Shown here one piece after another: positions 5,426 through 12,676 of a stretch of DNA of 27,102 nt. The notes under the pieces were generated by a model, which saw nothing but the letters and a program-made list of their open reading frames with translations, was not told where the DNA came from and made no database searches. Numbering within the stretch: the first letter of the stretch is position 1; the number at the start of each line of letters is the position of its first letter. Location of the stretch: IMG/VR virus record IMGVR_UViG_3300032288_001376, positions 1-27,102 of that record; one strand, 5' to 3'. Position numbers and translations under genes: made by a program. The stretch is from a virus.

Positions 5426-5604
5426 AATCACTACGCTATCGTGAGGACCTACACTACCTGAAGGATTCCAGGTGGCTCTCTGGGGAACTGTGCTACTGGA
5501 GGGGGAATGCGAATTACTCCGAAGAAACAAAGAAGAAACTTGAGAAACGACTTAAAAACATGATCTCTAAATCAAAAACCCTAAAAAATGGAAACCTTGC
5601 TTAA
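5422..5604 (+). CDS. 60-residue basic unknown protein
   Basis: It starts by ATGA overlap with the exonuclease stop. The product is basic and helical, with an aromatic N-terminal half (YREDLHYLKDSRWLSGELCYW) and a lysine-rich C-terminal helix (EETKKKLEKRLKNMISKSK). Co-translation with the recombination genes suggests an accessory DNA-binding role, but no family is recognised. Confidence 0.6.
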   Translation: MKSLRYREDLHYLKDSRWLSGELCYWRGNANYSEETKKKLEKRLKNMISKSKTLKNGNLA

Positions 5605-5782
5605 ATACATTAAACCTACAATCTACTGGGCGATAGTCTCAGCAGCAACACTTTTTGTGGTCTTGATTTTAATTGGAACGCCAAAGGATACGGTTATCAC
5701 GCTTTCAATTACGAGAATGTTCTTTGCGCTTATCGGGACCCAGTTTGTTTTAACCGCAGTTCTAATCTTTCTAAACCGATGA
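5588..5782 (+). CDS. Two-helix membrane protein
   Basis: A 64-residue protein with two clear membrane segments (about 11-30, TIYWAIVSAATLFVVLILIG, and about 44-62, MFFALIGTQFVLTAVLIF). A short polar loop joins them and a basic N-terminus precedes. The ATG at 5588 lies inside the previous gene (17-base overlap) and the stop overlaps the next start (ATGA). It is unusual in an early DNA-metabolism block; superinfection exclusion or membrane targeting is possible, without direct evidence. Confidence 0.6.
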   Translation: METLLKYIKPTIYWAIVSAATLFVVLILIGTPKDTVITLSITRMFFALIGTQFVLTAVLIFLNR

Positions 5783-5979
5783 AGAAGATCATTAAAAAAG
5801 AAGATGCGGTCCGTCATTTGGCGATGACCATCTTAATGGGTGTTTCCTTTCTTCAAAAGAGGGACAGGGGACTCGCTACCTACTTTGTCAAGAGTTTACT
5901 ACAGGTTTTGGACGATGAGGACGAGGTGATTAATCGGAGGTTAGTAAACGAGATGGACCGCTTAGATATCAAGTTATGA
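5779..5979 (+). CDS. 66-residue helical unknown protein
   Basis: Coupled at both ends by ATGA overlaps. The product is all-helical: a basic N-terminus, an amphipathic helix (VRHLAMTILMGVSFLQK), then an acidic-basic helix (DDEDEVINRRLVNEMDRLD). No family recognised. Position before the HTH regulator suggests an early regulatory or accessory role only by association. Confidence 0.55.
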   Translation: MKKIIKKEDAVRHLAMTILMGVSFLQKRDRGLATYFVKSLLQVLDDEDEVINRRLVNEMDRLDIKL

Positions 5980-6263: not shown

Positions 6264-6271
6264 TATATTTG
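6264..6271 (+). promoter_or_regulatory. Candidate Bacteroidota -7 box (TATATTTG)
   Basis: TATATTTG matches TAnnTTTG exactly and begins on the first base after the HTH gene stop. The expected -33 TTTG about 19-21 bases upstream is not evident (ATTT is there), so strength is uncertain. A transcript from here would carry a leader of roughly 100 bases with three hairpins before the ATG at 6380. Confidence 0.45.
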
Positions 6272-6275
6272 CTGA

Positions 6276-6304
6276 CCGATTTATCGGGCGTCTGTACAGA
6301 GGCG
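6276..6304. promoter_or_regulatory. Paired palindromes, candidate operator or leader hairpins
   Basis: CCGAT (6276-6280) and ATCGG (6283-6287) form a dyad around TT. TCTGTACAGA (6291-6300) is a perfect 10-base palindrome. The latter can also fold as CGTCT/AGGCG (6289-6293 with 6300-6304) in RNA. Both lie just downstream of the -7 box and of the LuxR-type gene, so they could be its binding site. Short palindromes arise by chance, so only the position makes them interesting. Confidence 0.35.
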
Positions 6305-6323
6305 TAATAATAAACATTTTTTG

Positions 6324-6379
6324 ACCCTTGGTGGGGAGTACCGGCTGTACCTGGGAAACCTACCAAGGGTTCTTTTTTT
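6324..6379 (+). terminator. Terminator-like hairpin abutting the next ATG
   Basis: ACCCTTGGT (6324-6332) pairs perfectly with ACCAAGGGT (6362-6370), extendable to about 12 pairs through a G-U and two G-C pairs. It is followed by TC and seven T (6373-6379). The ATG of the replication gene begins at 6380, so the T tract serves as its immediate upstream sequence. The loop holds a smaller GTAC/GTAC hairpin. It could end the upstream operon or act as an attenuator for the replication gene. A second element of the same design is at 11694-11725. Confidence 0.65.
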
Positions 6380-7066
6380 ATGAATACAGGACAGATAATT
6401 AAATCAAAAACAACTGAAAGGTTTACTACCTTACCTAATGATGTGATAAGGTCTAAAGATTTAACGCTGGAGGAAAAGGGATTCTTGGCTTTTCTTTTAA
6501 GCCTACCGAGTGACTGGGTGCTTTACAAATCAAATCTTTACAAGGAACTCCCAGACGCTAAAGGAACCATTGACCGGGTATTTAGAAACCTTCAGGATAA
6601 GGGATATATTCTATCCGTTAGGGTTCACGATAAAACAGGCCAGTTTGTTGGATGGAATCATATCGTTTACGATTACCCATATCAGGTTGAGCCGAGTTCG
6701 ACAAATGCCGAGGTCGGTCAAAGTGCCCCTATACTAAAGACTAATTCCATACAAAAGACTGATATTAAACAAAAGACTGAGGCAGAACTTTTGCCATTCG
6801 ATGACGACCTGTCAAACCAAGCATGGAAAGAATGGACACAATACCGCAAAGAGATACGCAAACCACTTTCGCCTTCGACTACCAAAAGCCAACTTGAAAA
6901 ACTTAATACGGTGGCTCCGCACACCAGGGCCGGGATGATCCGACAAAGTATCCAGAACGGATGGCAGGGACTTTTTGAGGTTAAAGAAATAAAAACCAAA
7001 GGAAATGGAATCAATTATAAGGACGAACTCACAAGAATTTATTCGGGACTTGAACAACCCAAATAA
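6380..7066 (+). CDS. Replication initiator-like HTH protein
   Basis: A 228-residue protein with an N-terminal winged-helix region typical of phage replication initiators. Residues about 8-50 contain ERFTTLPNDVIRSKDLTLEEKG and a LLSLPSDWVLYKSNLYKELP stretch. A second helical part follows (GTIDRVFRNLQDKGYILSVRV). A polar linker near 110-150 leads to a C-terminal conserved-looking segment (WKEWTQYRKEIRKPL). The usual family N-terminus is close to residue 8, which supports the ATG at 6380 despite its unusual upstream hairpin. It probably binds the origin and recruits replication proteins; it overlaps the next gene by 62 bases. Confidence 0.75.
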   Translation: MNTGQIIKSKTTERFTTLPNDVIRSKDLTLEEKGFLAFLLSLPSDWVLYKSNLYKELPDAKGTIDRVFRNLQDKGYILSVRVHDKTGQFVGWNHIVYDYPYQVEPSSTNAEVGQSAPILKTNSIQKTDIKQKTEAELLPFDDDLSNQAWKEWTQYRKEIRKPLSPSTTKSQLEKLNTVAPHTRAGMIRQSIQNGWQGLFEVKEIKTKGNGINYKDELTRIYSGLEQPK

Positions 7067-7868: not shown

Positions 7869-8303
7869 ATGAAATATGTTTACATACATAGAAATAGGCA
7901 CTCATTAGAGCCATTTTATATTGGAATTGGTAATAAAAAAAGAGCATATGATTTTAATAGTAGATCTAATGCTTGGAAAAATTATATTCAATTGAATGGA
8001 AAGCCAATTGTTGAAATTTTTTGCGCAACAGAAACAATAAAAGATGCAGAAAAAATTGAAATTGATTTAATCAAAAAATATGGTAGGAAAGATCTCAATA
8101 ATGGTAATTTAATAAATGGCAATAATGGAGGTATTGGTGGTAGCAAAAATCCAAGAATTGTATCTAAAATGATTTTAGATACTGAAACTGGTATTTATTA
8201 TGATTCAATAAAGGAAGCATTTCATGCTAAATGTTGCAGCACATATGTAATGCAAATGCTACATGGATTTGTAAAAAATAGAACATCATTAATTTTAATC
8301 TAA
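7869..8303 (+). CDS. GIY-YIG homing endonuclease with NUMOD-like domain
   Basis: A 144-residue protein with a GIY-YIG nuclease start: YVY at residues 3-5, FYIGIG at 16-21, KKRAYDF with R25, an acidic helix EKIEIDLIKKYG near 61-72, and NGNNGGIGG near 83-91. Residues about 98-140 (KMILDTETGIYYDSIKEAF, then a short helical part) look like a NUMOD1 DNA-binding module. Together these are typical of free-standing homing endonucleases of phages. The gene is only about 25% GC by hand count over three lines, against about 45% just downstream, and uses AT-rich codons, consistent with recent arrival. Confidence 0.85.
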   Translation: MKYVYIHRNRHSLEPFYIGIGNKKRAYDFNSRSNAWKNYIQLNGKPIVEIFCATETIKDAEKIEIDLIKKYGRKDLNNGNLINGNNGGIGGSKNPRIVSKMILDTETGIYYDSIKEAFHAKCCSTYVMQMLHGFVKNRTSLILI

Positions 8304-10851: not shown

Positions 10852-10880
10852 TTGCTTTTATTTTTATTTACTTATCTTTG
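10852..10880 (+). promoter_or_regulatory. Bacteroidota-type promoter, possibly leaderless
   Basis: TTG (10852-10854) lies 18 bases upstream of TATCTTTG (10873-10880), an exact TAnnTTTG match. The -7 box ends only three bases before the ATG at 10884, so transcription would be expected to start at or near that ATG. The preceding gap is T-rich. Confidence 0.5.
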
Positions 10881-10883
10881 GGC

Positions 10884-11078
10884 ATGGAGCAAAAAGAAAA
10901 CTCTGGCGTTCTTTTCAAGGCAGAAAAGAAAACCGAAAAACATCCTGACTACACAGGATCATTGAAAACGGAATCCGGGGACTATATGATGTCAGCCTGG
11001 GTAAAGCAAGGAAAGAAAGGAGCATTCCTTTCTGTATCGATTAAAAAGAAAGAAATTAAAACAGACATCCCATTCTAA
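10884..11078 (+). CDS. Small DUF736-like protein
   Basis: A 64-residue basic protein: SGVLFKAEKKTEKHPDYTGS, then DYMMSAWVKQGKKGAFLSVS, ending in a lysine-rich strand. The pDYtG ... aWvk ... G.flSvs pattern resembles short DUF736-like beta proteins found near DNA-metabolism genes. The ATG at 10884 is used rather than an in-frame TTG at 10878, because the TTG is part of the -7 box. The stop overlaps the next start (TAATG). Function unknown. Confidence 0.65.
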   Translation: MEQKENSGVLFKAEKKTEKHPDYTGSLKTESGDYMMSAWVKQGKKGAFLSVSIKKKEIKTDIPF

Positions 11079-11272
11079 TGCTACCAGTAACAAAGGGCCG
11101 AAAGCCCAAATACGACTTCTCTGCTCTGCTTACTGAAGAGTTCGCAGAATACGACTTCACCACCTCTCTCAGGGTTTGCGTGATTAACTACGCTAAAAAG
11201 AACAATCTGAAAATCTCCACAAGGAGGATCGGTGACAAACTAAGGGTTTATAGTGAAAGACAGGCTGGATAA
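11078..11272 (+). CDS. 64-residue basic protein, possible DNA-binding
   Basis: Begins MLPVTKGRKPKYDFSALL and has a basic second half (NYAKKNNLKISTRRIGDKLRV) compatible with a small winged or helix-turn-helix fold. It overlaps the preceding stop by one base and the NinG-like start by 20 bases. This order, small DNA-binding protein then NinG, suggests recombination or late regulation. No family assigned. Confidence 0.55.
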   Translation: MLPVTKGRKPKYDFSALLTEEFAEYDFTTSLRVCVINYAKKNNLKISTRRIGDKLRVYSERQAG

Positions 11273-11681
11273 GATATTCAGCCTTTTTATCCGATTGAGG
11301 GATTCCGATGAGTTCGGATATGGGAACTGCGTTACTTGTAATAAAAAAGTCTACTACAAGGAAGCCCATTGCGGACACTTCATGTCCCGAAGACATCTAA
11401 GTACCAGGTGGGATGAGGATAACTGCGCTCTTCAATGTGTCGCTTGCAATTTGTTTAACCAAGGCAGGCAGTATGAGTTTTCGCTTTATTTAGGACAGAA
11501 GAGAGCCGAACACTTATTAAACAAATCCCGACAGACAGTAAAGTTTACTAAATCCGACTACTTGGAACTAATAAATAAATATAAGTTAAAGGTAAAGCAA
11601 TTGGAAAACAAAGTATCTTTAACGCAGATCTCTGATGGCACTCAGTCAGGCCCCCAGACGAATAGGGTAAAAAATCGTTGA
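11253..11681 (+). CDS. ninG: NinG/Rap-like recombination protein
   Basis: A 142-residue protein with paired Cys motifs and a characteristic core. CVTCNKKVYYKEAHCGHFMS (about 26-45) is followed by RRHLSTRWDEDNCALQCVAC and N. A QGRQYEFSLYL segment follows. This matches NinG of lambda-like phages, a zinc-binding HNH-type structure-selective nuclease or helper that stimulates recombination. The C-terminal 45 residues are a lysine-rich helix and tail. The start is GTG at 11253. It fits functionally with the ERF and YqaJ genes upstream. Confidence 0.85.
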   Translation: MKDRLDKIFSLFIRLRDSDEFGYGNCVTCNKKVYYKEAHCGHFMSRRHLSTRWDEDNCALQCVACNLFNQGRQYEFSLYLGQKRAEHLLNKSRQTVKFTKSDYLELINKYKLKVKQLENKVSLTQISDGTQSGPQTNRVKNR

Positions 11682-11693
11682 TAATTTGGGTTG

Positions 11694-11725
11694 ACCCGGA
11701 GGGATAAGACTCTCCGGGTTTTTTT
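11694..11725 (+). terminator. Terminator hairpin abutting the next ATG
   Basis: ACCCGGAG (11694-11701) pairs perfectly with CTCCGGGT (11712-11719), a GC-rich stem with a ten-base loop, followed by a seven-T tract (11719-11725). The glycosyltransferase ATG is the very next base. As at 6324-6379, the stem is preceded by TTGACCC and the T tract runs straight into ATGAA. It is a convincing terminator for the early operon, yet leaves no room for a separate ribosome entry site. Confidence 0.75.
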
Positions 11726-12676
11726 ATGAAAGTATTCATCACAACACCAGCACTAACTCCGAACGGAGGGATCAGGGTAATCTTAGAAGTCGCACATAGA
11801 CTATCTAAGTTCCACGAAGTCACCTTGTTAAATCAATCACCAGATAACTCATGCCATTGGTATCCGATTGAATGCAACATCGTAAACAACATAAACGAAC
11901 TGGCGAAGGCTGATGTATTAATCATCTCATCTCCTCATGCAGTTGATTTGACTAAATTAAAAATCAAAGCAAGGATATTCGCTTTCACTCAGATGATTGA
12001 GCATTTATTCCAACCTTGGAATAGAGCCTTTAAACAAAAGTGCTTAGAGTTTTATAAGTTAGAAACGATTACCATTTCAGAGTGGGGGATTAAAGAACTG
12101 AGAGGATACGGCAACATGAAGCCGATTCATTACTTAGGGAACGGAGTTAACTTGGAACACTTTCCTATTTACTCCAATAAGAAGGACGGCAAGACAATCC
12201 TATTAGAAAGCCCAGAGCCAATCAATCCAACCAAAGATCGGGACAGATTAGCCATTAAAGTAGCCAAGAGATTAGAGAGCGAAGGATATAGAATTATCGG
12301 CTTTGGGACTATAAAACCAAAAGAGATAAGCAGTTTCTACGTTAATCCGAACCTTGAGACCTTGAACGCTTTGTACAAAGAAGCAACGATAATGATCAAG
12401 GCAACTATCTGTGATTTCAGAAGTACTGCACCAATGGAAGCCGGGACAAAGGGAACGGTAACCGCCAGAGCAATAACTCAGGGAGATGATGACCTCGTTA
12501 ACGAGTACAATTGTTTAAAAGTGAATTATTCAGAGGATGAACTTTACTTTGCATCAAAGAGACTTTTAGAAGATTCTAAACTCAGAGCGAGGCTTGCAAA
12601 GAATATGGTTAATCATATCAAGGAACATTCTTGGGACAAGTACATAGACCAGTTCAATAAAATCATCTCTGAATGA
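11726..12676 (+). CDS. GT4-like glycosyltransferase
   Basis: A 316-residue glycosyltransferase of GT-B type. The N-terminal Rossmann half begins MKVFITTPALTPNGGIRVIL with a Gly-rich donor-side loop (NGGIRV) and contains ADVLIISSPHAV. The interdomain segment YLGNGVNLEHFP is the classical GT4 hinge signature. The second half has LLESPEPINPTKDRDR and APMEAGTKGTVTAR in place of the usual acidic donor motif. It probably moves a sugar from a nucleotide donor onto a cell, virion or nucleic-acid acceptor. It opens the modification cassette and is coupled to the next gene by an ATGA overlap. Confidence 0.8.
   Translation: MKVFITTPALTPNGGIRVILEVAHRLSKFHEVTLLNQSPDNSCHWYPIECNIVNNINELAKADVLIISSPHAVDLTKLKIKARIFAFTQMIEHLFQPWNRAFKQKCLEFYKLETITISEWGIKELRGYGNMKPIHYLGNGVNLEHFPIYSNKKDGKTILLESPEPINPTKDRDRLAIKVAKRLESEGYRIIGFGTIKPKEISSFYVNPNLETLNALYKEATIMIKATICDFRSTAPMEAGTKGTVTARAITQGDDDLVNEYNCLKVNYSEDELYFASKRLLEDSKLRARLAKNMVNHIKEHSWDKYIDQFNKIISE

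Follow-up and report, generated by a model that had tools for sequence, protein, structure and literature searches.

In a 27.1-kb virus record, analysed over its full length and called the window here, a strong hairpin at positions 11691-11730 (element 2) runs through seven T directly into the start codon of a glycosyltransferase-like (GT) gene, and another hairpin, in the segment 6264-6380 (element 1), does the same at a replication-initiator-like (Rep) gene. The question raised by this locus is whether the two elements are copies of one regulatory device or structures of different kinds. Element 2 by itself is ordinary; it was the comparison with element 1 that exposed a covarying leader missing from Rfam. 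The reading we prefer, with a probability of about 75%, is that element 2 is the terminator of a transcription unit ending in a NinG-like gene, and that element 1 belongs to a separate family of kissing-loop leaders, for which a role in attenuation is proposed.

Sequence and fold of element 2

The plus strand sequence TTGACCC at 11691-11697 forms the 5′ edge of element 2. The core of the stem pairs ACCCGGAG (11694-11701) with CTCCGGGT (11712-11719), 8 bp with no mismatch, and the stem extends to 11 bp if G-U pairs are counted; the fold has an energy of -20.8 kcal/mol and z = -3.3. Read as DNA, the element is GACCCGGAGGG-ATAAGA-CTCTCCGGGTT, with a loop of 6 nt, followed by T7 and then by ATGAAAGTA. 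The hairpin itself, GACCCGGAGGG-AUAAGA-CUCUCCGGGU(U) in RNA form, spans 11693-11719 and the T7 run spans 11719-11725, both on the plus strand, such that the T at 11719 is counted twice, as the final base of the stem and as the first of the T7. The ATGAA of the GT gene begins at 11726, with zero gap. The edge, the GC-rich 8-pair stem, the T7 run and the adjoining start codon are all in place as the original prediction described them. Element 2 is the top terminator-like site in a scan of the window, and its hairpin-T7 arrangement exceeds chance. Across the window there are 4 copies of TTGACCC vs 2.9 expected. A comparison with 4227 Rfam families gave no score at or near threshold over element 2 or element 1.

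Element 2 at the 3′ end of the NinG unit

Element 2 is found between a NinG-like gene on its 5′ side (11253-11681, plus strand; Pfam PF05766, E 2.7e-12), which is the last gene of its transcription unit, and the GT gene (11726-12676, plus strand; MKVFITTPALTPNGGIRVI...). The GT gene has no Pfam match, and its name comes from the look of the sequence and from the original prediction. Its start codon is backed by a homologue in contig L003, the one other GT homologue found, with 56% identity. The L003 locus is syntenic: a NinG gene (5479-5853) is followed by a terminator hairpin (GAGGGATGGGTGCGCCTGTCCCTC-T), by 36 nt and then by GT, and the stem of this terminator differs in sequence from that of element 2. 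Other viral contigs yielded 67 distinct NinG 3′ ends, and 29 of these have terminator-like hairpins with varied stems.

From its sequence and surroundings, element 2 is best read as an ordinary terminator of the intrinsic (Rho-independent) type, closing the transcription unit of NinG. It has a GC-rich stem that leads into a U-run, it stands at the 3′ end of the unit, and a terminator at the equivalent place is kept in relatives. The contact with the ATG appears to be a local accident of compaction, since the next ATG is 18-190 nt away from the NinG terminators of relatives, and contact is seen only in L251, which is the window's own virus. The original prediction would lead one to expect a third instance of the pattern and the same zero spacing in close homologues. 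A pattern search revealed no third instance elsewhere in the window and the spacing in L003 is an ordinary one, the two outcomes that the prediction itself had named as counting against it.

No TAnnTTTG promoter box is present between NinG and GT or within 200 nt of element 2, and none is visible in the NinG-GT spacer of L003; the plus strand box nearest to GT is at 10873. This suggests that GT is probably expressed by read-through, by antitermination or from a type of promoter that was not recognised. It is possible, if on the unlikely side, that element 2 acts as an early/late attenuator, with GT and later genes needing a Q-like phage factor to be transcribed past the NinG terminator. The lack of a box between terminator and GT in both genomes and the retention of a post-NinG terminator in many relatives are consistent with such an attenuator, but a gene for an antiterminator, or a site recognised by one, was not identified, and phage-specific promoters would escape detection.

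The box at 10873-10884 of the window (TATCTTTG), of the TAnnTTTG type, is 3 nt 5′ of an ATG (MEQKENSG...), and an mRNA started there would thus be leaderless or nearly so. A different arrangement is seen at L085:3756, L094:3718, L098:3060 and L102:2684 (- strand), where a TAnnTTTG-like box (TTTTTTTGTATTTTTG) is fused with the U-run of a terminator and an ATG follows at exactly 24 nt, as if the terminator and the next promoter overlapped.

Element 1 and its comparison with element 2

Element 1 has a more complex anatomy, all of it on the plus strand. A match to the Bacteroidota -7 box (TAnnTTTG; the promoter consensus is TTTG/TANNTTTG, PMC6847099) is found at 6264-6271 (TATATTTG), just 5′ of hairpin 1 (6288-6305; GCGTCT-GTACAG-AGGCGT), the position that defines the leaders described below. 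Hairpin 2 (6323-6371; GACCCTTGGTGGG...CCTACCAAGGGTT) is terminator-like and is followed by a T7 run (6373-6379) and by the Rep gene (6380-7066), which has the N-terminus MNTGQIIK and is a distant relative of phage Rep/DnaD-like proteins. The sequence GTACAG (6294-6299) makes up the entire loop of hairpin 1, and CTGTAC (6345-6350) makes up the entire apical loop of hairpin 2. Both loops are exactly 6 nt and are fully complementary, and they are the two putative arms of a kissing contact. Directly behind the replication genes, at 7869-8303, there is a gene that by eye is GIY-YIG endonuclease-like (YVYIHRN...FYIGIGN).

The original prediction took the two elements as copies of one genome-wide hairpin-T7-ATG device with a common frame. 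The resemblance is real in part: both have a strong hairpin, T7-ATGAA contact and GACCC/GGGT stem ends. However the T7-ATGAA of element 1 comes after GGGTTC, and relatives of either element do not conserve the common edges; in those of element 1 the stem edges vary. Element 2 also has no partner hairpin; in the 300 nt upstream of it the longest complement to its loop is 5 nt, which is at chance level. A scan of the window for the whole leader anatomy found element 1 only, with no second copy and no match at element 2. Covariance models of the leader never matched element 2, and their best matches are one copy per phage, 5′ of the replication operon; one model, R2, derived with RNAalifold, rests on a poor structure and its weak matches were disregarded. 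With no partner hairpin, no nearby promoter, no model match and a homologue that is not in contact with its ATG, element 2 was rejected as a second copy of element 1, and a single device repeated in this genome is very improbable.

A family of kissing-loop leaders

Relatives of element 1 were traced through 36 loci that code for relatives of its Rep protein, and a wider set of 80 viral and 6 bacterial loci was obtained from a protein-alignment search. In dozens of Bacteroidota phages the leader shows the same order of parts: a TAnnTTTG box is followed by hairpin 1, an A-rich linker connects this to hairpin 2, and behind hairpin 2 come a U-run and the start codon. A hairpin with a U-run near the ATG, together with an upstream hairpin of complementary loop, is found in nearly all leaders. 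Most leaders have the -7 box at -95 to -132, and in most families about 7-20 nt separate the end of hairpin 2 from the AUG. The spacing from arm to arm is 42-47 nt in most leaders, which suits a contact in cis, within one molecule. Some leader families have a longer linker with an extra hairpin. The U-run is kept across families that have little sequence in common and is weak in some leaders (L040).

The kissing contact comprises 6-8 bp and is formed by about 30 different arm pairs, a number that still includes L151, as does the total of 49 leaders, although L151 is rejected as a leader and regarded as a chance match. Of the 53 leaders in which a hairpin folds, 41 contain a complement of at least 6 nt to their own loop; when hairpins were set against the upstream regions of unrelated leaders, this was so in 83 of 2474 combinations (3.4%). 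The leader types are divergent, and alignments that mixed them were set aside. Across the type-D alignment (17 distinct leaders) no row breaks any of the 7 kissing pairs. Three of these pairs have changed at both of their bases, whereas a change of this kind is seen once among the 15 pairs of hairpin 2. A strict search for a box, hairpin 1, a 7-nt kiss and a terminator returned 38 distinct places, of which L151 is likely due to chance; the two controls gave 2 (reversed sequence) and 1 (block-shuffled sequence). An earlier detector, which accepted a kiss of 6 nt, let through too much (91 vs 91 in the reversed control). The kissing-loop structure of the leader is thus well supported as a prediction from comparative sequence.

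These results separate two further parts of the original prediction. A recurrent device at a module boundary was borne out in that a hairpin-U-run-ATG arrangement heads the replication module in dozens of phages; element 2, read as a plain terminator, is not an instance of it. The CCC-stem-GGGT frame is not the conserved part, which is instead the promoter with the two-hairpin kissing-loop leader.

The leader is missing at the same Rep gene in L053, L064, L073 and L079, and among the bacterial loci loop pairing is found only in L120 and L121. L077 and L078 have more elaborate leaders, which add an 18-bp stem and another long complement (CTATTACATT/AATGTAATAG). Near-threshold Rfam matches to RF02914 (DUF805b RNA) at L244:1-28 and L275:2744-2776 do not overlap the leader. 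No published description of phage kissing-loop leaders or of Bacteroidota phage RNA motifs was found in a literature search that reached few of the subscription papers.

Downstream genes and hosts

The leader is modular, in that with a common hairpin-2 frame it precedes first genes that are not homologous. It heads the MNTGQIIK Rep gene and other initiator-like genes (L140, L226). T5orf172-like genes, GIY-YIG related by eye, are found between leader and Rep in L160, L187, L198 and L227, where they supply the ATG beside the U-run. The leader also precedes the HNH endonuclease gene gp032 in phage tooticki6-1 and an HNH-like gene in L275. Its copies at L241:333-432 and L275:819-915 lie away from the replication operon, each immediately 5′ of an HNH-type endonuclease gene. 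It should be noted that T5orf172, HNH-like and DUF1376-like are names given by reading the sequence, and that an annotation exists for gp032 alone. Two leader copies are present in tooticki6-1, with the kissing pairs GTGAGACG/CGTCTCAC and GTCGTCG/CGACGAC. Among cultured Flavobacterium phages the leader is found in the tooticki, lillamy, morran, mumin, snusmum and elemo types. Phage-host pairs in culture (Flavobacterium sp. LMO6, LMO9, BAL314) thus contain the leader, which makes control of early expression directly testable.

Fast-changing loops

Over 170 nt, six positions set the leader of L077 apart from that of L078. All six are in the kissing arms and are exactly compensatory, such that 6 of 15 arm positions and 0 of 155 other positions have changed, with flanks that are 96-98.5% identical. 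The leaders of the cultured tooticki6-1 and mumin6-1 differ from each other at 4 of their 16 arm positions and at 10 of the remaining 109. Over 17 close pairs the arms show 24 changes in 240 positions vs 57 in 1405 for the rest (odds ratio 2.6, p = 3e-4), figures that include the hand-added L077/L078 pair and come from non-random pairs and from a leader list that contains the chance match L151. On these comparisons the kissing arms appear to diverge faster than the surrounding leader while their complementarity is kept.

One reading of this pattern, tentative and rather improbable in our estimate, is that the leader is a self-addressing RNA control, in which loop pairs would be selected to change in step and so give each phage or copy a private code. 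This resembles the incompatibility loops of plasmids, but here the carriers are strictly lytic Bacteroidota phages. A related proposal is that the leader works in trans, with a terminated RNA of about 100 nt pairing with the leaders of other copies as a copy-number or competitor control, and with the kiss as a tag. The rapid but complementary divergence of the arms (L077/L078 and the 17 pairs) and the different kissing sequences of the two tooticki6-1 copies point in this direction. However the narrow spacing of the arms fits a cis contact, which would outcompete pairing in trans, part of the rate signal is supplied by the one hand-added pair, and no opposite-strand -7 box of the consensus type is conserved among 62 leaders; action in trans is accordingly judged unlikely. 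The co-diversifying loops nevertheless pose the question of a cis fold vs specificity in trans.

Possible role of the leader

The most likely role of the leader is that of a cis-acting transcription attenuator on early operons. A putative promoter of the host type (TAnnTTTG) would start a leader of about 90-120 nt, at the 5′ end of which hairpin 1 would fold. Past the A-rich linker hairpin 2 would then fold, and its apical loop would kiss the loop of hairpin 1 in cis over 6-8 bp; next in line are the U-run and the operon's first start codon. Hairpin 2 and the U-run may terminate a fraction of the transcripts, and the kissing contact may set the frequency of this termination or the use of the adjacent AUG. 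In this way the leader would meter the early expression of the replication operon.

A role at the level of translation should also be considered, whereby the loop-loop fold at the AUG would limit access of the ribosome, as in the IncI repZ pseudoknot. Bacteroidota mRNAs have no SD (PMC6847099), so masking of an SD by the hairpin is not expected. Initiation in Flavobacterium is sensitive to structure near the start codon, and hairpins of 13-20 bp near the AUG would also hinder it (PMC6847099), which keeps this role in play together with the short distance from hairpin 2 to the AUG in most families. However the Moomin phages keep the leader and its T7 terminator with the ATG about 45 nt downstream, an arrangement that points to termination, more than translation, as the function that has been conserved, and the U-run is retained across dissimilar families. 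Translation control as the main role is rather unlikely, and attenuation and translation control may both apply.

Kissing loops are known from regulatory RNAs such as the purine and cobalamin riboswitches. The leader might be an RNA of this kind, a riboswitch or autoregulatory site that senses a ligand or protein, with the kiss merely structural. Hairpin 2 has conserved unpaired bases in types A and D, as a sensing RNA might, but these bases are not common to all types, there is no Rfam match, and the downstream genes share no metabolic theme. A sensing RNA is distinctly unlikely.

Comparison with known systems

Element 2 shares with intrinsic terminators the GC-rich stem, the 6-nt loop, the seven U and the place at a gene 3′ end, and is unusual only in its zero distance to a start codon, a distance that is not conserved.

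For the leader, one likeness is to the IncI-alpha/IncB repZ/repA pseudoknot (Asano and Mizobuchi 1998, cited in PMC10724649), in which a 5′ loop pairs in cis near the start of an initiator gene; the leader likewise shows cis loop-loop pairing 5′ of a replication gene. Loop bases define specificity, with five nucleotides of difference between the RNAI of IncK1 and that of IncK2 (PMC10724649). The leader departs from the repZ system in that its hairpin 2 is a terminator with a U-run, in that the opposite strand has no conserved consensus promoter, and in that it is found in phages whose hosts are SD-less Bacteroidota.

A second likeness is to the P4 CI RNA immunity system and Gifsy-1 IsrK (PMC4825925), where a phage leader has complementary segments and transcription ends early, 5′ of replication or regulatory genes, and where a short RNA and a read-through mRNA come from one promoter, as is proposed for the leader. 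Both P4 and Gifsy-1 are temperate, with an action in trans (PMC4825925), whereas muminphages are virulent (PMC7077304) and the leader contact has cis geometry. A P4-like lysogenic immunity was considered and is unlikely, in that muminphages carry no lysogeny genes (PMC7077304) and bacterial loci with the pairing are so few. Fast compensatory change of the loops makes a role in trans conceivable, with plasmid incompatibility (PMC10724649) and P4/IsrK (PMC4825925) as precedents.

The leader may also be set beside plasmid replication controls. In the pT181 countertranscript attenuator and in ColE1 RNA I/RNA II, fully complementary loops of about 7 nt control replication and have diversified. There the loops pair a sense with an antisense RNA, whereas both loops of the leader are on one transcript. 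On the sequence comparisons presented here, element 1 would thus stand for a new RNA family; as a device it is of a known kind, in which a structured leader heads a replication operon.
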